A DNA stretch of 64,000 bases from Pseudomonas oryzihabitans (lineage in GTDB: Bacteria > Pseudomonadota > Gammaproteobacteria > Pseudomonadales > Pseudomonadaceae), in contig NZ_CP013987.1 of NCBI RefSeq assembly GCF_001518815.1, positions 2,936,501 to 3,000,500 on the forward strand, in the 5' to 3' direction. The position numbers and the translations under genes were made by a program. This document shows positions 3,964 to 36,598 of the stretch, one piece after another. The number at the start of each line of letters is the position of its first letter. Positions within the stretch are counted from its first letter, which is position 1. A model generated the notes under the pieces. It saw only the letters and a program-made list of their open reading frames with translations, was not told where the DNA came from and made no database searches.

Positions 3964-4553
3964 TACTCTTGGTCCAGGCCGGGATAGAAGCCCTGGACCT
4001 TCTGGAAGCCACCCAGCCAGCTGCGCCGCTCCACCACGCACTCGAACACCGGGCAGGCCGCCTGCCCGGCCTGCCCGCAGTCACGGTAGTAGGTCAGCTG
4101 CTGGCTCTTCTGTGCCGTACCCTTGAAAGTACCCGGACGATCCTGCAGCAGATAGAAGTCGATTTCCGCGGCGCTGCGATGATTCTCCCACTGGAACGCC
4201 AGAGTACTAGGATAGAAAAGCACCAGCAGGGAGGCCAGCAGCACCCAGAGAATGGCCGCGGTCAGCGGCAAGGGCAATCGCGAGCGAAAGCGGCGTCCGC
4301 CGCGAATGATCAGCGCGGTGACCACCGTGACCAGGGCCAGGGCGATGCACAGCGACGGCAAGCCTGTGATGACCTGGCCGGCCACACCGATATCCAGGCC
4401 GCTGGGCGATGGCACCGTCCGATAGCCGATCTCCAGCCGCTCCCAGCCCACCCGATTACCGATCAGACCGGCAAGACCGAAGGCGACGGCCAGGCCCACC
4501 AGGGCCCAGAAGGTACGAGGATTGGTACTGCGCATGGGCAATCGTCCAGACAA
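3918..4553 (-). CDS. Membrane protein of unknown function
   Basis: The 211-residue product has three hydrophobic segments (about residues 15-33, 60-83 and 97-115) followed by a roughly 95-residue hydrophilic C-terminal domain containing four cysteines (YRDCGQAGQAACPVFECVVE and RTRC near the end), suggesting a disulfide-bearing periplasmic domain. An alternative start six codons in (MRSTNPRT) is equally plausible. I do not recognise the family. The gene converges on the ABC exporter with a 46-bp overlap. Confidence 0.7.
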   Translation of the reverse strand: MSGRLPMRSTNPRTFWALVGLAVAFGLAGLIGNRVGWERLEIGYRTVPSPSGLDIGVAGQVITGLPSLCIALALVTVVTALIIRGGRRFRSRLPLPLTAAILWVLLASLLVLFYPSTLAFQWENHRSAAEIDFYLLQDRPGTFKGTAQKSQQLTYYRDCGQAGQAACPVFECVVERRSWLGGFQKVQGFYPGLDQEYQLELLRTRCLPGTP

Positions 4554-4649
4554 AGACCGGGAGACTGCCTAAGCCCGCCGGCGAAGGCAAATCAGAATTC
4601 TGCCCTGCTCCTGTGCTCTATTGAAGGCATCCGCCTGAGGAACCCGTCC

Positions 4650-4907
4650 ATGTCCATCGATCTTGACCGTGCTACCCACATCGTTGAAAAAGCCTTTTTG
4701 CCGCTGCGCGGCGACGTCCGCGAAGATCCCAGCGACGCCAGCTTTGCCCTGACCGTGACCGACGGCAGCCAGGTACTGGCCTCGATCGCCCACGTCGCGC
4801 GCAGTCAATACAGCCACGCCGGACACCTCGCGGCGCTGATCGAACAGACCCGCCTGGAACTGGCACGCGACGGCCACGCCCTCGAACCCTGGTCGATGCC
4901 GGGCTAG
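4650..4907 (+). CDS. Small conserved Pseudomonas-type protein (DUF1652-like)
   Basis: An 85-residue protein starts at ATG 4650, with GAGGAA about 8 bases upstream. The opening (ATHIVEKAFLPLRGDV) and the closing helix (IEQTRLELARDG) resemble DUF1652 proteins, which share an I-E-x-x-FLPL start and a helical C-terminus. This is a tentative match from memory. No signal peptide or membrane segment is visible. The same frame stays open far upstream, but that part has no start with a ribosome-binding site and lies antisense to the membrane-protein gene. Confidence 0.6.
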   Translation: MSIDLDRATHIVEKAFLPLRGDVREDPSDASFALTVTDGSQVLASIAHVARSQYSHAGHLAALIEQTRLELARDGHALEPWSMPG

Positions 4908-5003
4908 CAGCCGATCACCGCCGGTGACCGCGAGGTTCGGCAAGGCCGTGTCGAGCTGATAGACTGCCGCCCCGCAGCCGCCACACACCGTGGCCCAACG
5001 CGA

Positions 5004-5369
5004 GTGGTTATCGTGGAAATTTTCAAAGAATTCGTTTTCGAAGCCGCACACTTCCTGCCCAACGTTCCGCCGGGCCACAAGTGCGGGCGTCTCCATGGGC
5101 ATTCCTTCAAGGTAGGCCTGCATATCGAGGGCGCCGTCGACCCTCATACCGGCTGGGTACGGGATTTCGCCGATATAAAGGCCGCCTTCAAACCCCTGTA
5201 CGAGCGTCTCGACCACCATTATCTGAATGACATCCCGGGTCTTGAGAACCCCACCAGCGAAGTCCTCGCGCGCTGGATCTGGCAACAGCTCAAGCCGCTC
5301 CTGCCCGAGCTCAGCCAGGTTCGCGTCCATGAGACCTGTACCTGTGGCTGCATCTACCGCGGCGACTAA
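5004..5369 (+). CDS. queD: 6-carboxy-5,6,7,8-tetrahydropterin synthase
   Basis: The 121-residue protein has the QueD/PTPS fold signature: the zinc ligands in FEAAHFLPN and CGRLHGHSF, the catalytic Cys just before HGH, and a C-terminal [10 protein letters not shown] segment with the pterin-binding Glu. It converts 7,8-dihydroneopterin triphosphate to 6-carboxytetrahydropterin, the second step of queuosine/7-deazaguanine synthesis in the cytoplasm. No ATG is available. GTG codons at 5004 and 5013 are the candidates; the second would give a start (VEIFKEF) closer to known QueD proteins. The gene stands alone, 82 bp before pitA. Confidence 0.93.
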
Positions 5370-5451
5370 TTCGCCTCTCCCATTCAAGGCGGCGATGGTG
5401 GCAGTCATTTTTCTGCCATAATTCGCGCCTGCCAACTGTCGACGTATCCCC

Positions 5452-6918
5452 ATGTTCGAACTTTTCAGCGGACTCCACGCCTGGGTCGCCATCAGCCTCG
5501 TCTTGGCCCTGGCCTTTGTGCTGGCCTTTGAATTCATCAATGGCTTCCACGACACCGCCAATGCCGTCGCCACGGTGATCTATACCAAGGCGATGCCACC
5601 GCACCTCGCAGTGCTCTTCTCCGGCATCTTCAACTTCCTCGGCGTGCTGCTCGGTGGCGTTGGCGTTGCCTATGCCATCGTCCACCTCTTGCCGGTGGAA
5701 CTGCTGATCAACGTCAACACCGGCCACGGGCTGGCCATGGTGTTCTCCCTGCTCGCCGCGGCCATCACCTGGAACCTGGGCACTTGGTACTTCGGCATCC
5801 CCGCCTCCAGTTCCCATACGCTGATCGGTTCCATCCTCGGCGTCGGCGTGACCAACGCCCTGCTGACCGGCATTCCGATGAGCGAAGGCGTCAATTGGCA
5901 GAAGGCGATCGACATCGGCCTGTCGCTGATCTTCTCGCCACTGGCCGGCTTTGCCGTCGCCGGCCTGCTGCTGCTCGCCCTCAAGCGCTGGCGGCCGCTG
6001 TCCAAGATGCACAAGACCCCCGAGCAGCGCCGTGAGGTGGACGCCAAGAAGCATCCGCCCTTCTGGAATCGTCTGATGCTGGTTCTCTCGGCCATGGGCA
6101 TGAGCTTCGTGCATGGCTCCAACGACGGCCAGAAAGGCATTGGCCTGATCATGCTGGTGCTGATCGGCATCGTCCCGGCCAAGTTCGTCCTGGACCTGGA
6201 CAGCACGACCTACCAGATCGAGCGCACCCGCGACGCCGCCATCCACCTGGGCCAGTTCTACGAGCGCCAGGGCGACAACCTGAAGGACTTCCTCGCCGAA
6301 GTGCCCGGCAATCGCGACCTGCCCCAGGAATTCCGCTGCGCCCCGCACATGACCCTGCCCACCCTGCAGGCCCTGCTGGCCGACCTGGAAGGCATCACCG
6401 ACTACCGCGCCATGAGTGACGATCATCGCCAGCAGGTGCGTCGCTACCTGCTGTGCCTGGACGACACCGCCAAGAAAGTCAGCAAGCTGCCGGTACTGAC
6501 CGCGCGCGACCGTGACGATCTCAGCCGGCTGCGCAAGGACCTCACCAGCACCACCGAATACGCGCCCTTCTGGGTCATCATCGCCGTCGCCCTGGCCCTG
6601 GGCATCGGCACCATGGTCGGCTGGCGTCGCGTGGTACTCACCGTGGGCGAGAAGATTGGCCGCCAGGGCATGACCTATGCGCAGGGCGTCAGCGCCCAGG
6701 TGACGGCCGTGGCCGCCATCGGCATGGCCAACGTCTTCGCCCTGCCCGTCTCCACGACCCACGTGCTGTCTTCGGGCGTAGCGGGCACCATGGTCGCCAA
6801 CCGCAGCGGCCTGCAAGGCAGTACGGTGCGCAACATCCTCATGGCCTGGGTACTCACCCTGCCCGCCTCCATGGCCCTTTCCGCCGGCCTGTTCTGGCTG
6901 GCCCACCTGTTCCTGTAA
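5452..6918 (+). CDS. pitA: Low-affinity inorganic phosphate transporter, PiT family
   Basis: The 488-residue integral membrane protein shows the two repeated PiT signatures: EFINGFHDTANAVATVI near residue 30 and MSFVHGSNDGQKGIGL near 220. N-terminal and C-terminal membrane halves of about five helices each flank a roughly 140-residue hydrophilic loop. Length and pattern match bacterial PitA, which carries metal-phosphate in symport with protons. No PhoU-like partner gene precedes it. The gene is monocistronic, followed by an inverted repeat at 6928-6955. Confidence 0.9.
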   Translation: MFELFSGLHAWVAISLVLALAFVLAFEFINGFHDTANAVATVIYTKAMPPHLAVLFSGIFNFLGVLLGGVGVAYAIVHLLPVELLINVNTGHGLAMVFSLLAAAITWNLGTWYFGIPASSSHTLIGSILGVGVTNALLTGIPMSEGVNWQKAIDIGLSLIFSPLAGFAVAGLLLLALKRWRPLSKMHKTPEQRREVDAKKHPPFWNRLMLVLSAMGMSFVHGSNDGQKGIGLIMLVLIGIVPAKFVLDLDSTTYQIERTRDAAIHLGQFYERQGDNLKDFLAEVPGNRDLPQEFRCAPHMTLPTLQALLADLEGITDYRAMSDDHRQQVRRYLLCLDDTAKKVSKLPVLTARDRDDLSRLRKDLTSTTEYAPFWVIIAVALALGIGTMVGWRRVVLTVGEKIGRQGMTYAQGVSAQVTAVAAIGMANVFALPVSTTHVLSSGVAGTMVANRSGLQGSTVRNILMAWVLTLPASMALSAGLFWLAHLFL

Positions 6919-6955: not shown

Positions 6956-7059
6956 CAGGCCCCTCGTCGGGAAAGCCTGAACAGGATAGCTATTGACGTG
7001 TCTAGTGAAATGTGTCCAGCAGCGACACTTTTTCCGAGACAGCCGTACGGTGAACGTCA

Positions 7060-31824: not shown

Positions 31825-33858
31825 ATGCCTGCGTTGAAACCCCTCGCCCTGACCATCGGCCTGCTGCTCGGCAGCCAGGCTTTCGCTGCTCCTGTCTTCG
31901 ACGTCACCGAACTGGGTGACCCGGCCACCGCCTGTAGCGACCTCGACACCTTCGTCAACCAGAAATGGGTCTCGGCCAATCCCATCCCGCCGGACAAGTC
32001 GCGCTGGGGTTCCTTCATGGCCCTGGGCGAAAAATCGCTCAACGACCAGCACGCCATCCTGCAGCGCGCAGCCCGCACGGCGGATCGCGCGGAACAGGGT
32101 TCGGTAGAACAGAAGGTCGGTTGGCTGTATCGCTCGGGCATGGACGAAGCCGCCATCGAGCGCGCCGGCTATCAGCCGATCCAGGCGCAGCTGGCCGCCA
32201 TCGACCGGCTGCGCACCTCGGCCGATGTGGTGGCCTATCTCCAGAAGAGCTTTGCCCGAGGCGACATGCAGGTGTTCTCCTTCGGCTCCGGTGCCGACTA
32301 CCAGAACGCCAAGCAGCAGATCGCCTATGCCTACCAGGGTGGCCTGGGCCTGCCGACACCCGATTACTACACCGAGGCCGACTACGCCAAGCTACGCCAG
32401 GCCTACCTGGGTCATCTCGCACGGCTGCTGACCCTGACCGGCGTACCCAAAGCCCAGGCGGCCGCCCAGGCCGAGCTGGTGCTGGCCTTCGAAAGTCGCC
32501 TGGCACGTGCCTCGGTCAAGCCGGTGGATCTGCGCAATCCGGAAAACCAGTATCACTACCTGAGCTTCGCCGAAGCCAACAAGGTCACGCCGCACTTCGA
32601 CTGGCAGGCTTTCTTCGCCAGCCAGGGCGTCACCGGCCAGCAGGGCTTTTCCTTATCCCAGCCCGGCTTCTTCGCCGAGTTCGACCGCATGCTGGCCGAG
32701 ACGCCCATCGAACAGTGGCAGGCCTATCTGCGGGCCCACGTGATCGATGACGCCGCGCCGCTGCTGTCCAAGCCCTTCCAGCAGGAGAGCTTCGAATTCA
32801 ACCAGAAGACTCTGAGCGGCCAGCAGCAACAGAGCGAGCGCTGGAAGCGGGTGCTGAGCGCGGTCAATGGCGCCATGGGCGAAGGGCTCGGCCAGCTCTA
32901 TGTGCAGGAGCACTTCTCGCCCCAGGCCAAGGCGCGGGCCCAGGAACTGGTGGACAACGTGATGCTGGCGCTTCGCGCCCGCATCGAGAAGCTCGACTGG
33001 ATGAGCCCGGAGACCAAGCAGAAGGCCCTGGCCAAGTGGGACAGCTTCCTGCCCAAGATCGGCTACCCCGAGCGCTGGCGGGACTGGAGCGGCCTGACGC
33101 TCAAGCCGCAGGGCTTCTACGCCAACCTGGAAGCCGCCTCACGCTTCAACTATCGCCATGATCTGGACAAGATCGGCAAGCCCACCGATCGCCAGGAATG
33201 GGGCATGTACCCGCAGACGGTGAATGCCTACTACAGCCCCACCGACAACACCATCAACTTCCCGGCCGCCATCCTGCAGCCACCGTTTTTCTATGCCGAC
33301 GGCGACGATGCCATCAACTATGGCGGCATCGGCGCGGTGATCGGCCACGAGGCCAGCCATGGCTTCGACGACCAGGGCAGCAAGTTCGACGGCGCGGGCA
33401 ACCAGGTGGACTGGTGGACCCCGGCCGATCGCAAGGCCTTCGAGGCCCGTACCGGCAAGCTGGTGGAGCAGTTCGACAACTACCATCCGCTGCCCGACCA
33501 TCCTGAGCTGCACGTCAACGGCAAGCTCACCCTGGGCGAGAACATCGGCGACCTCGGCGGCATCAACGCGGCCTATGACGCCCTGCAACTGGCCCTGGCC
33601 AAGAAGCCGGAAGAAGCCAATCGCAAGATCGATGGCTACACCCAAGAGCAGCGCTTCTTCCTCAACTGGGCACGGGTCTGGCGGGGCTCGATCCGTGAAG
33701 AACAGGCGCGCCTGTTCCTCAACACCGATCCCCATGCCCCCATGAAATTCCGCGCCATCGGGGCGCCCTCCAACATGCCGTCGTTCGCGAAGGCGTTCAG
33801 CTGCAAGGCGGGTGATGCCATGGTCCGGCCGGACGAGAAACGCGTGGAAATCTGGTAG
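31825..33858 (+). CDS. M13-family zinc metallopeptidase (neprilysin/PepO-like)
   Basis: The 677-residue protein has a signal peptide (MPALKPLALTIGLLLGSQAFA) and an N-terminal M13 domain beginning with DLDTFVNQKW. The catalytic domain follows: the zinc motif HEASH near residue 508 in VIGHEASHGFDDQG, the third ligand in GENIGDLGG near residue 571, and the C-terminal CKAGDAMVRPDEKRVEIW with the family-typical terminal Trp. It is probably a periplasmic oligopeptidase. It has its own position after the nuo terminator and no cotranscribed partner is evident. Confidence 0.93.
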   Translation: MPALKPLALTIGLLLGSQAFAAPVFDVTELGDPATACSDLDTFVNQKWVSANPIPPDKSRWGSFMALGEKSLNDQHAILQRAARTADRAEQGSVEQKVGWLYRSGMDEAAIERAGYQPIQAQLAAIDRLRTSADVVAYLQKSFARGDMQVFSFGSGADYQNAKQQIAYAYQGGLGLPTPDYYTEADYAKLRQAYLGHLARLLTLTGVPKAQAAAQAELVLAFESRLARASVKPVDLRNPENQYHYLSFAEANKVTPHFDWQAFFASQGVTGQQGFSLSQPGFFAEFDRMLAETPIEQWQAYLRAHVIDDAAPLLSKPFQQESFEFNQKTLSGQQQQSERWKRVLSAVNGAMGEGLGQLYVQEHFSPQAKARAQELVDNVMLALRARIEKLDWMSPETKQKALAKWDSFLPKIGYPERWRDWSGLTLKPQGFYANLEAASRFNYRHDLDKIGKPTDRQEWGMYPQTVNAYYSPTDNTINFPAAILQPPFFYADGDDAINYGGIGAVIGHEASHGFDDQGSKFDGAGNQVDWWTPADRKAFEARTGKLVEQFDNYHPLPDHPELHVNGKLTLGENIGDLGGINAAYDALQLALAKKPEEANRKIDGYTQEQRFFLNWARVWRGSIREEQARLFLNTDPHAPMKFRAIGAPSNMPSFAKAFSCKAGDAMVRPDEKRVEIW

Positions 33859-33931
33859 TGCTCCAGGGGCGTCAGGCAGTCGGGTATCGCTTTTGCATTG
33901 CCCGTCACCTCTCCCCTCCGGCGCTCCGTCC

Positions 33932-35602
33932 ATGCCCCTAGAACTCGCCTTCGCCGAAGCCACTGCGACCGGTCCACGCAAGGAAAACCAGGACGCCTTG
34001 CGCAGTGTCCAGCCCAGCGCGGCGCTGGCAGCCACCAAGGGGCACCTGTTCGCCCTGGCCGATGGTGTCAGCGGTTGTCCGGATGGTGGACTCGCCGCGC
34101 GTGCCACCCTGCAGGCGCTGGCCCAGGACTATTATTCCACCCCGGAAACCTGGCCGGTGGCCCAGGCCCTGGAGCGGTTGCTGCTGGCGCAGAATCGCTG
34201 GCTGCAGGCCGCCGGCAGTGGCCAACCGCTGCTGACCACCCTGACGGCCCTGGTGATCCGCGGACGGCGCTATACCCTGGCCCATGTCGGTGATTGCCGC
34301 GCCTATCGTTGGCATCAGGGCCGACTCGGTTGTCTCACCGTCGACCACGTTTGGCAGCAGGCCGGTATGCAGCACGTCCTGACCCGCGCCCTGGGCCTGG
34401 AAAGCCATCTGGTAGTGGATTTTCGCGAAGGCGAACTGGAAACCGGCGAGACGCTATTGCTGGTCAGCGACGGCGTCTGGGCGGCGCTGGGCGAAGACAG
34501 CATGAGGCGTATTCTCGTCGACGGCGTGACCGATCTGGATGCCACCGCCCAGGCGCTGGTGGCCGGGGCGCTGCACGCCGGCGGCCAGGACAATGCCAGC
34601 GCCCTGCTGGTAAGGGTCGACCGCCTACCCGACATCTCCCTGGCCGATACCCTGGCCAACGCCGACACCTGGCCACCGCTGCCCGCCTTGAAGCCCGGCC
34701 AGGCCTTCGAAGGCTGGACAGTGGTCGAGCGCTTGGCGGAGTCGCGGCAATCGCTGCTCTATCGCGTCCACGACGAGCGTGGCCGCCCCTGGCTACTCAA
34801 GACCCTGCCCGCGGCGCTGCAATTCGACACCCTGGCCGGTCATGCCCTGCTCATGGAGGAATGGTTCCTACGCCGCGTCGCCGGCCGTGCCTTCGTCGAG
34901 GTACACCCCTTGCCCAGGCGGGCGCATCTCTACTTCGTTCAGCGTGAGTACCCAGGGCGGACGCTGGCGCAGCAGCTAACCAGCGAAGGGCCCCTGGCGC
35001 TGGCCGACTGGCTGGACGTGGCGTCGCGCCTGTTGCGCGCCCTCGGCCAGCTGCACAGACGCAACATCCTCCATCGCGACATCAAGCCGGACAACCTGCA
35101 TCGCGGCCTGGACGGCGAATTGCGCCTGCTGGACTTCGGTCTGGCCTACTGTCCGCAGTTGTCCGAGGATCTGCAGGACAGCCCGGGCACCCCCAGCTAT
35201 CGCGCGCCAGAGTCCTTCGAAGGCGCCGAGCCGAGTCCGGCCCAGGATCTCTACGCGGCCGGGGTGACCCTCTACCAGCTGCTGACGGGTGGCTATCCCT
35301 ACGGCGAGGTGGAACCCTTCCAGCGCCCACGCTTCGGCGCGCCCGCCAGCGTGCTACGGCGGCGTCCGGATGCGCCGGCCTGGCTCGAAGACTGGCTGCA
35401 ACGCGCCGTGGCAGTGGATCCCGATGAGCGCTTCGAGACCGCCGAAGAAGCGCTGCTGCTATTGGAACAGGGCGAACGCCAACCTCTGGCCCGACCCCTG
35501 CCGCTGCTGCAGCGCGATCCCCTGCGCACCTGGCAGATCGTGGCGGCCTGTTCGCTGACGCTGAATCTGCTGCTGATACTGCTCTGGCTCTATCGACATT
35601 GA
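33932..35602 (+). CDS. PP2C phosphatase / serine-threonine kinase fusion, membrane-anchored
   Basis: The 556-residue protein begins with a PP2C domain (about residues 1-245): RKENQDA, ALADGVSG with the metal-binding D44, AHVGDCRAY, LLLVSDGVW and GGQDNASALL are all intact. A kinase domain follows (about 260-515) with WLLKTL as the ATP-lysine strand, HRDIKPDN (D383 catalytic), LLDFGLAY (D401) and YRAPESF; the glycine-rich loop (VERLAESRQSLLYRV) is degenerate. A C-terminal membrane helix (about 533-553) ends in LYRH. In P. aeruginosa such a gene lies between nasA and nirB. Here it precedes cobA directly. Substrates are unknown. Confidence 0.9.
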   Translation: MPLELAFAEATATGPRKENQDALRSVQPSAALAATKGHLFALADGVSGCPDGGLAARATLQALAQDYYSTPETWPVAQALERLLLAQNRWLQAAGSGQPLLTTLTALVIRGRRYTLAHVGDCRAYRWHQGRLGCLTVDHVWQQAGMQHVLTRALGLESHLVVDFREGELETGETLLLVSDGVWAALGEDSMRRILVDGVTDLDATAQALVAGALHAGGQDNASALLVRVDRLPDISLADTLANADTWPPLPALKPGQAFEGWTVVERLAESRQSLLYRVHDERGRPWLLKTLPAALQFDTLAGHALLMEEWFLRRVAGRAFVEVHPLPRRAHLYFVQREYPGRTLAQQLTSEGPLALADWLDVASRLLRALGQLHRRNILHRDIKPDNLHRGLDGELRLLDFGLAYCPQLSEDLQDSPGTPSYRAPESFEGAEPSPAQDLYAAGVTLYQLLTGGYPYGEVEPFQRPRFGAPASVLRRRPDAPAWLEDWLQRAVAVDPDERFETAEEALLLLEQGERQPLARPLPLLQRDPLRTWQIVAACSLTLNLLLILLWLYRH

Positions 35603-35704
35603 ACGACCCAAGGCATGCCCTCTTTTGCAGCACACTGCGCACAAAGGAGGCAGCCGGGTGAGATTTTTTCGCCGCCAACCGCCAGAATGGACGGATCTGG
35701 GCCT

Positions 35705-35720
35705 TGGCATGAAGCCTGCA
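35705..35720 (+). promoter_or_regulatory. Sigma-54 promoter upstream of cobA
   Basis: TGGCATG-AAGC-CTGCA has the invariant GG (35706-35707) and GC (35718-35719) at the exact 12-base spacing of the -24/-12 promoter, and differs from TGGCACG-N4-TTGCA at only two positions. Transcription would begin near 35731, just before the first leader hairpin. An NtrC site upstream was looked for and not clearly found. Confidence 0.75.
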
Positions 35721-35737
35721 AACCTACCCATTACATA

Positions 35738-35783
35738 GGTCTTTCTTCAACGGCGAGGAAAGACCCTCCGGACAAAGGCGTCC
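35738..35783 (+). ncRNA. ANTAR-type tandem-hairpin antitermination leader
   Basis: Hairpin 1 spans 35738-35765: an 11-bp stem (GGTCTTTCTTC against GAGGAAAGACC, one G-U pair) with loop AACGGC. After a 4-base linker, hairpin 2 spans 35770-35783: stem GGAC/GTCC with loop AAAGGC. Both six-base loops have A at position 1 and G at position 4, the recognition signature for ANTAR RNA-binding regulators such as NasR and NasT. Hairpin 2 uses bases that also form the 5' arm of the terminator that follows, so the two are mutually exclusive. No nasR, nasT or nasS gene is in the window. Confidence 0.8.
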
Positions 35784-35813
35784 CAGCTGCTTGCAGCGGG
35801 ACGCCTTTTTTTT
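35774..35813 (+). terminator. Leader terminator before cobA
   Basis: AAAGGCGTCCC (35774-35784) pairs with GGGACGCCTTT (35798-35808). An inner GCTG/CAGC extension follows after one bulged base, and a run of eight Ts covers 35806-35813. It is one of the strongest terminators in the window and lies 38 bases before the cobA start, so it would block cobA unless antitermination occurs. Confidence 0.9.
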
Positions 35814-35851
35814 GCGTTACAGTCTCCACCCTGGATACGAGAGGTCACTAC

Positions 35852-36598
35852 ATGAGCGGGAAAGTCTGGTTGATCGGTGCCGGCCCTGGCGATCCCGAGT
35901 TGCTGACGCTCAAGGCCGTGCGCGCCCTGGGCGAGGCCGAGGTGGTGATGATCGACGACCTGGTCAACCCGGCGGTGCTCGAACACTGCCCGACCGCCCG
36001 GGTGATCCGCGTCGGCAAGCGCGGTGGTTGTCGCTCCACGCCCCAGGCCTTCATCCACCGGCTGATGCTGCGCTATGCCCGCCAGGGCCGTTGCGTGGCC
36101 CGGCTCAAGGGCGGCGATCCCTGCATCTTCGGTCGCGCCGGCGAGGAAGCCGAATGGCTGGCCGCCCGCGGTGTCGGCAGCGAGATCGTCAACGGCATCA
36201 CTGCCGGCCTGGCCGGTGCCACCGCCTGCGGCATCTCCCTGACCTTGAGGGGCGTGGCCCGCGGCGTGACCCTGGTCACCGCCCACACCCAGGACGACAC
36301 GGCGCCCAACTGGGCCGCCCTGGCAGCTACCGGTACCACCCTGGTGGTCTACATGGGCGTGGCCCGGCTCAGCGAGATTCAGCAAGGCCTGCTGGACGGC
36401 GGCTTGCCATTGGCTACGCCGGTAGCCATGATCGAGAACGCCTCCCTGCCCAGCCAGCGCGAATGCCGCTCGACCCTGCAGGAGCTGCAGGTGGACGCCG
36501 CGCTCTTCCAGTTGAAGAGCCCGGCGATCCTGGTGATCGGCGAGGTGGTGGGCCAGGCGGCTCTGCAGCAGGCCTTGAGCTACGCCGCCCAGGCCTGA
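35852..36598 (+). CDS. cobA: Uroporphyrinogen-III C-methyltransferase
   Basis: The 248-residue SUMT-type methyltransferase begins VWLIGAGPGDPELLTLKA and has the second signature VARLKGGDPCIFGRAGEE, both diagnostic. It methylates uroporphyrinogen III to precorrin-2, the branch point to siroheme and cobalamin. It is a stand-alone enzyme without the CysG dehydrogenase half. GAGAGG precedes ATG 35852. In P. aeruginosa the copy linked to nirBD-nasC supplies siroheme for nitrite reductase. Here it is the only gene left behind the sigma-54/ANTAR leader. Confidence 0.94.
   Translation: MSGKVWLIGAGPGDPELLTLKAVRALGEAEVVMIDDLVNPAVLEHCPTARVIRVGKRGGCRSTPQAFIHRLMLRYARQGRCVARLKGGDPCIFGRAGEEAEWLAARGVGSEIVNGITAGLAGATACGISLTLRGVARGVTLVTAHTQDDTAPNWAALAATGTTLVVYMGVARLSEIQQGLLDGGLPLATPVAMIENASLPSQRECRSTLQELQVDAALFQLKSPAILVIGEVVGQAALQQALSYAAQA

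Follow-up and report, generated by a model that had tools for sequence, protein, structure and literature searches.

The nirBD-PA1779-cobA operon of Pseudomonas aeruginosa, in which cobA is the last gene, reportedly works by antitermination, as the title of a 2012 paper by Romeo has it. CobA makes precorrin-2, from which siroheme is formed. Siroheme is contained in NirBD (PMC12830290). The leader of this operon, nalA, has been described as carrying sigma-54 boxes and a terminator (PMC3973561), and we infer that it is the same element as the Rfam entry P11. In published accounts, the RNA targets of ANTAR proteins are defined by paired hairpins with hexanucleotide loops bearing A1 and G4, the second hairpin overlapping a terminator (PMC3369931, PMC7496416). 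The NasR-nasF leader of Klebsiella oxytoca is described as such a two-hairpin target, with A1/G4 hexaloops closed by C:G pairs and with read-through of the terminator on nitrate (PMC7496416). In Paracoccus, the NasS-NasT complex is reported to dissociate with nitrate or nitrite, and NasT to bind the nasA leader (PMC3795266). Growth of P. putida on nitrate is reported to need nasT (PMC7261876), and P. putida cobA has been listed as putatively NasT-regulated (PMC7801951). In Bradyrhizobium, by one account, most NasT-dependent genes lack the hairpins, and the hairpin-bearing narK and bjgb rose in a nasT mutant (PMC6759348), observations that speak against the reading reached here. Within the open-licence PMC literature, no report was found of a leader of this kind standing before cobA alone.

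The window, that is, the whole stretch of 64,000 nucleotides of Pseudomonas oryzihabitans DNA that was analysed, contains such a leader directly in front of cobA. An earlier note made from the sequence alone had drawn attention to it as a sigma-54 promoter followed by two ANTAR hairpins and a terminator. The features of the locus are as follows:

33812..35602, + strand: upstream ORF, phosphatase/kinase-like by eye, a nas-cluster neighbour in relatives
35693..35805, + strand: hit to Rfam RF00625 (P11) at 56.6 bits and E 1.4e-11, short of the gathering score of 70
35705..35720, + strand: sigma-54 type -24/-12 promoter, TGGCATGAAGCCTGCA, assigned from sequence
35738..35765, + strand: ANTAR hairpin 1 (arms 35738-35748 and 35755-35765), 11 bp with one U-G pair, loop AACGGC at 35749-35754
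35770..35783, + strand: ANTAR hairpin 2 (arms 35770-35773 and 35780-35783), 4-bp stem, loop AAAGGC at 35774-35779
35774..35813, + strand: intrinsic terminator (arms 35774-35789 and 35794-35808), one bulged A, eight-T run at 35806-35813
35852..36598, + strand: cobA, uroporphyrinogen-III C-methyltransferase, 248 aa, Pfam PF00590, 165.4 bits

The cobA product is 78-96% identical to its counterparts in five relatives; its name within the methylase family rests on the earlier note and on the conserved place of the gene. In relatives, tblastn places counterparts of the upstream ORF (57-95% identity) close to the leader or to cobA, with intervening genes at some loci. Downstream of cobA, another ORF of that strand begins after 61 nt, and no terminator is evident by eye between the two, so the leader may control more than cobA. 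As the genome holds eight matches to the CobA methylase family, one of which may be CysG, CobA is perhaps not the sole source of precorrin-2.

When arms, loops and energies were computed, the two hairpins with six-base loops described in the earlier note were borne out. Hairpin 1 (-16.4 kcal/mol) forms all 11 of its stem pairs in the window, hairpin 2 has an energy of -5.1 kcal/mol, and in both hexaloops A1, G4 and a C-G closing pair are present. The overlapping terminator is equally real, with an energy of -26.0 kcal/mol ahead of its run of eight Ts; its 5' arm is made up of the hairpin 2 loop together with the 3' arm of that hairpin, so that the two structures overlap and exclude one another. 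The fold of the RNA at 35731-35815 has a z-score of -6.41, and none of 200 shuffles was as good. A search pattern consisting of an A1/G4 hexaloop on a stem of at least 4 pairs with an overlapping terminator, its thresholds set after the finding had been seen, turned up 10 times when both strands of 100 dinucleotide-shuffled versions of the window were scanned. Once a hairpin 1 of at least 9 bp within 160 nt upstream was added to the pattern, it occurred in none of 100.

The pairing is also reflected in an alignment of 21 leaders, which omits three of the 20 P11 loci, namely the window itself (L009) and two near copies (L013 and L016). Two-sided changes are found in six of the seven counted pairs of hairpin 1, with 87.8% of cells paired, and in two of the four pairs of hairpin 2, in one sequence each, with two gapped cells and one unpaired. 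The 8-bp outer stem of the terminator is paired in every one of the 21 leaders, and seven of its eight pairs are invariant. For hairpin 1 and the terminator, the observed covariation score was reached by none of 500 shuffles, a comparison in which related sequences can beat the shuffles without structure and for which the structure was partly derived from the same sequences. Sliding the pairing partner lowers the score from 0.284 to 0.114 or less. The count of further pair types is unexceptional, 72 of 500 shuffles being as high. Taken together with the computed folds, we regard the architecture of the leader as confirmed.

The -24/-12 promoter proposed at 35705-35720 stands as well. Its spacing is correct, with the -24 GG at 35706-35707 and the -12 GC at 35718-35719, and TGGCAY-N6-TGCA is conserved in all 13 cobA leaders listed for the genus to which the window belongs. 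On the two strands of the window there is a single instance of the strict form TTGGCA-N7-TGCA. A looser consensus, TGGC[AG]N7[TA]GC, has 25 instances where shuffles give 24.1, which is the level of chance; the match taken alone is weak, and it is position and conservation that carry the promoter claim. The start implied by this promoter, predicted near 35731, precedes both hairpins. In the 300 bp upstream of the promoter no NtrC-like box was found (374 of 500 shuffles were as good), and the nasA promoter of the same genome likewise yielded none (342 of 500). Candidate NtrC boxes are found upstream of nirB and nasC (9 and 3 of 500 shuffles as good), and these two are not independent, since both sit in one common intergenic stretch. 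The P. protegens nalA promoter is said, in the one account drawn on here, to be without an NtrC site (PMC3973561). Above the cobA promoter, at 35604-35660, lies a degenerate stem, recognized by eye, which resembles one that follows nrtC in relatives; it may mark the site of a loss or gain of nasR-nrtABC.

Searched with covariance models, a check that the earlier note had named, the leader region gives matches far above chance. At gathering thresholds no Rfam entry is found anywhere in the window. Besides the match to P11, a permissive threshold brings up narK RNA (RF03032; 30.1 bits, under the gathering score of 43.2), in an alignment covering the promoter-like block, the AACGGC loop and the second hairpin. 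On the evidence of similarity, the cobA leader appears to be a shortened homolog of P11 that is not filed as a member of that family; the stretch between its two ANTAR hairpins is much shorter than in P11. Like the cobA leader, the P. aeruginosa nalA/P11 leader has sigma-54 boxes, loops and an overlapping terminator, with cobA in the operon that it serves.

A covariance model built from the leaders finds four sites at E<1e-5 in the genome of the window, before cobA (84.1 bits), nirB (52.3), nasC (47.9) and nasA (44.6), scores which are not independent because all four leaders were in the training alignment. The next-best match (25.4 bits, E 0.022) is the reverse strand of the cobA terminator; no fifth leader was found among the 150 of 3964 candidates that were scored, and a search of plasmids with the leader gave no match. 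Independently of this model, the nasA and nasC leaders exceed the narK RNA gathering score of 43.2, at 57.6 and 59.3 bits, and the nirB leader matches P11 weakly (27.6 bits). That the nasA leader (L061:9881-9969, narK RNA 57.6 bits) passes the narK RNA threshold suggests that P11 and narK RNA, separate entries in Rfam, may be forms of one ANTAR leader. Between the divergent nasC and nirB genes, two ANTAR leaders lie back to back (L062:5710-5798 on the - strand and 6092-6216 on the + strand).

These matches also bear on two other explanations. P11 is an sRNA in the Rfam catalogue and has been investigated in that capacity in P. aeruginosa PA14 (PMC12080996), and the default fold of the leader finishes in a strong terminator. 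The leader could thus be mainly a small RNA, its terminated transcript acting on other RNAs and read-through into cobA being incidental, an idea which is compatible with antitermination. Conservation, however, falls on hairpin 1, the ANTAR loops and the terminator overlap; moreover, all four leaders precede nitrate-assimilation genes, and cobA starts 38 nt past the end of the T run. We consider a mainly small-RNA role very unlikely. A second suggestion would make the leader a relic, left behind when nirBD-nasC moved away, to which NasT does not bind and whose terminator merely limits cobA. It is true that most P11 matches exceed the leader in length, that the segment between the hairpins is missing from it and that no NtrC site was detected above it, but loops, stems and promoter have been kept throughout the genus and every pair of hairpin 1 still forms, which makes decay highly improbable.

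The proposed partner of an antitermination leader is an ANTAR protein, and the search of the genome for such a gene, which the earlier note had also put forward, returned NasT as the only ANTAR match at E<=0.001. Its gene adjoins that of NasS: at locus L061 4272-6169, PF13379 (NMT1_2, 288.7 bits) marks NasS and the adjoining ORF carries the receiver and ANTAR domains PF00072 and PF03861, marking NasT. The pair is located near nasA, at a distance of some 131 kb from the cobA leader. Leaders of the cobA type also precede nirB, nasC and nasA in this genome, nirB and nasC standing back to back. As the single genomic ANTAR match carries a receiver domain and not a NIT domain, the likely partner of the cobA leader here is NasT and not NasR. 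In this respect the system differs from that of K. oxytoca, where the nasF leader is read by a single NIT-ANTAR protein, whereas the likely partner of the cobA leader is a NasT held by NasS. Comparison of NasT with solved structures returned the receiver-ANTAR relatives 1s8n, 6wsh and AmiR (1qo0) along with many receiver domains, and added little. The hairpins, the terminator, the covariance matches and the presence of NasT support the NasR/NasT-type antitermination architecture that the note had recognized, the mechanism itself being carried over from relatives.

In eight of the 13 genomes of the genus (G003 and G005-G011), a NIT-ANTAR gene and genes for a nitrate ABC transporter separate the kinase-like gene from the cobA leader (the domains were tested for G010). 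This neighbourhood raises the question of whether a different ANTAR protein such as NasR, or some other factor, reads the leader instead of NasT. The genome of the window and G002 are without these genes at that place and, against such a reader, the one ANTAR match in the window's genome is NasT; another reader is here extremely unlikely. Next to the cobA leader, very weak model matches (L063:10394-10496 and similar ones in L073-L079, the loci of the window's genome and of G002 excepted; 14-24 bits, E 0.003 to 0.8, mostly insignificant) fall in the interval from the NIT-ANTAR gene to the transporter genes. At L074:7335-8677, the gene for the binding protein of the nitrate ABC transporter is matched as two adjacent pieces, which could reflect either a sequencing error or a disrupted gene.

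Across the genus, the leader stands directly before cobA in 13 of 13 genomes. A P11 search of 37 genomes gave a match at E<=0.001 in 17, including all 13 of the genus, and seven passed the cut-off. Ten of the 13 have a single P11 match, directly before cobA; the other three (G001, G004 and G012) have two leaders, before nirB and before cobA, with nasC between. In G001 the nirB behind the leader is partial, and a full-length nirB lies elsewhere with its own model match. In a FastTree tree of 22 leaders, which are short sequences, the cobA leaders of single-leader genomes in the genus cluster apart from those of double-leader genomes. Weak model matches (24.7-30.3 bits) are found directly before nasS in the three two-leader genomes (L064:943-1043, L065:19406-19508 and L066:18945-19044), so that NasS-NasT may control its own genes. 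Behind leaders at five loci, nirB is only partly matched (L066:8112-9440, L069:5627-6628, L112:5857-6864, L113:5857-6918 and L131:3014-4234) and may encode a shortened NirB-like protein.

In the wider family the leader is usually further from cobA. Among 59 sampled genomes, a close cobA (E<=1e-90) is present in 36 and the leader (E<=1e-4) in 35; a leader lies upstream on the same contig in 34 of the 36 genomes with a close cobA, and in two there is none. The coordinate difference between cobA and the nearest listed leader is 39-42 in five genomes, all of the window's genus, 1173 in two and 4020-5955 in 27. In G019, a genome with a strong P11 match (122.9 bits), the order is kinase-like gene, leader, nirB, nirD, nasC and cobA, and 5.6 kb separate leader and cobA, as against about 40 nt here. 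Of 80 named loci, 24 are Pseudomonas-like (L110-L132 and L160), and 22 of these contain a model match at E<=0.1; in the remaining two, L122 and L129, the sequence is truncated upstream of cobA. The other 56 loci were all searched with the model, and matches at E<=0.1 were found in L159 and L149 only. A partial nirB separates leader from cobA at L112 and L113. Relatives of the P. fluorescens/putida type likewise have cobA apart from nirB, in a nasS-nasT-nasA-kinase-cobA cluster with a model match upstream; at the four loci with this layout (L123, L126, L127 and L130), however, the matches precede nasA or nasS and none is directly before cobA. Among the 24 Pseudomonas-like loci, a leader stands directly before cobA in one, P. 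peli (L121; leader at 6713-6806, cobA at 7001). In the tree this leader joins the G019 nirB leader at a support of 0.853, a grouping that points to a probably independent origin of the direct placement in P. peli and in the window's genus.

We are confident that the cobA leader acts by NasT-dependent transcription antitermination and is a shortened homolog of nalA/P11 placed directly before cobA. By analogy with the relatives that have been studied, the start site, the binding of the regulator, the response to nitrate and the physiological role may be pictured as follows. Transcription would start from the sigma-54 promoter near 35731. When nitrate is absent, NasS would hold NasT, and the RNA would fold into hairpin 1 and the terminator and stop near 35813. 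When nitrate or nitrite is present, freed NasT would bind both hexaloops and hold hairpin 2, blocking the terminator, so that cobA is read; CobA would then provide precorrin-2 for the siroheme of NirB. Since the identical type of element stands before nirB, nasC and nasA elsewhere on the chromosome, one regulator could switch four separate units together. The best reading of the locus is of a scattered NasS-NasT regulon in which cobA has its own leader for the siroheme of NirB.

The earlier reading was thus right on architecture and very probably right on mechanism. Its surprise at finding cobA alone under such control is partly taken away: in P. aeruginosa cobA belongs to an antitermination operon, and the genome of the window has further leaders at nirB, nasC and nasA. 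Switches of this sort are already known, and their mechanism is commonplace in the bacterial family; here the setting has been rearranged, and novelty, of a modest degree, is confined to how the genes are arranged. What is unusual is that cobA has its own copy, which is not shared with the nitrite and nitrate reductase genes.

More speculatively, the genus may have given siroheme supply a nitrate checkpoint of its own, separating synthesis of the cofactor from that of the enzyme, with two ANTAR proteins perhaps reading one cobA RNA. The latter suggestion comes from the genes for a NasR-type sensor and a nitrate ABC transporter beside the cobA leader in eight relatives; we put this picture forward only tentatively and think it doubtful. 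If the main reading of the locus is true, it shows that the NasT leader can be placed as a unit before separate genes, bringing scattered enzyme, transporter and cofactor genes under one nitrate signal. With four leaders and one ANTAR match in one genome, the organism would offer a clean system for ranking the targets of a single antiterminator.
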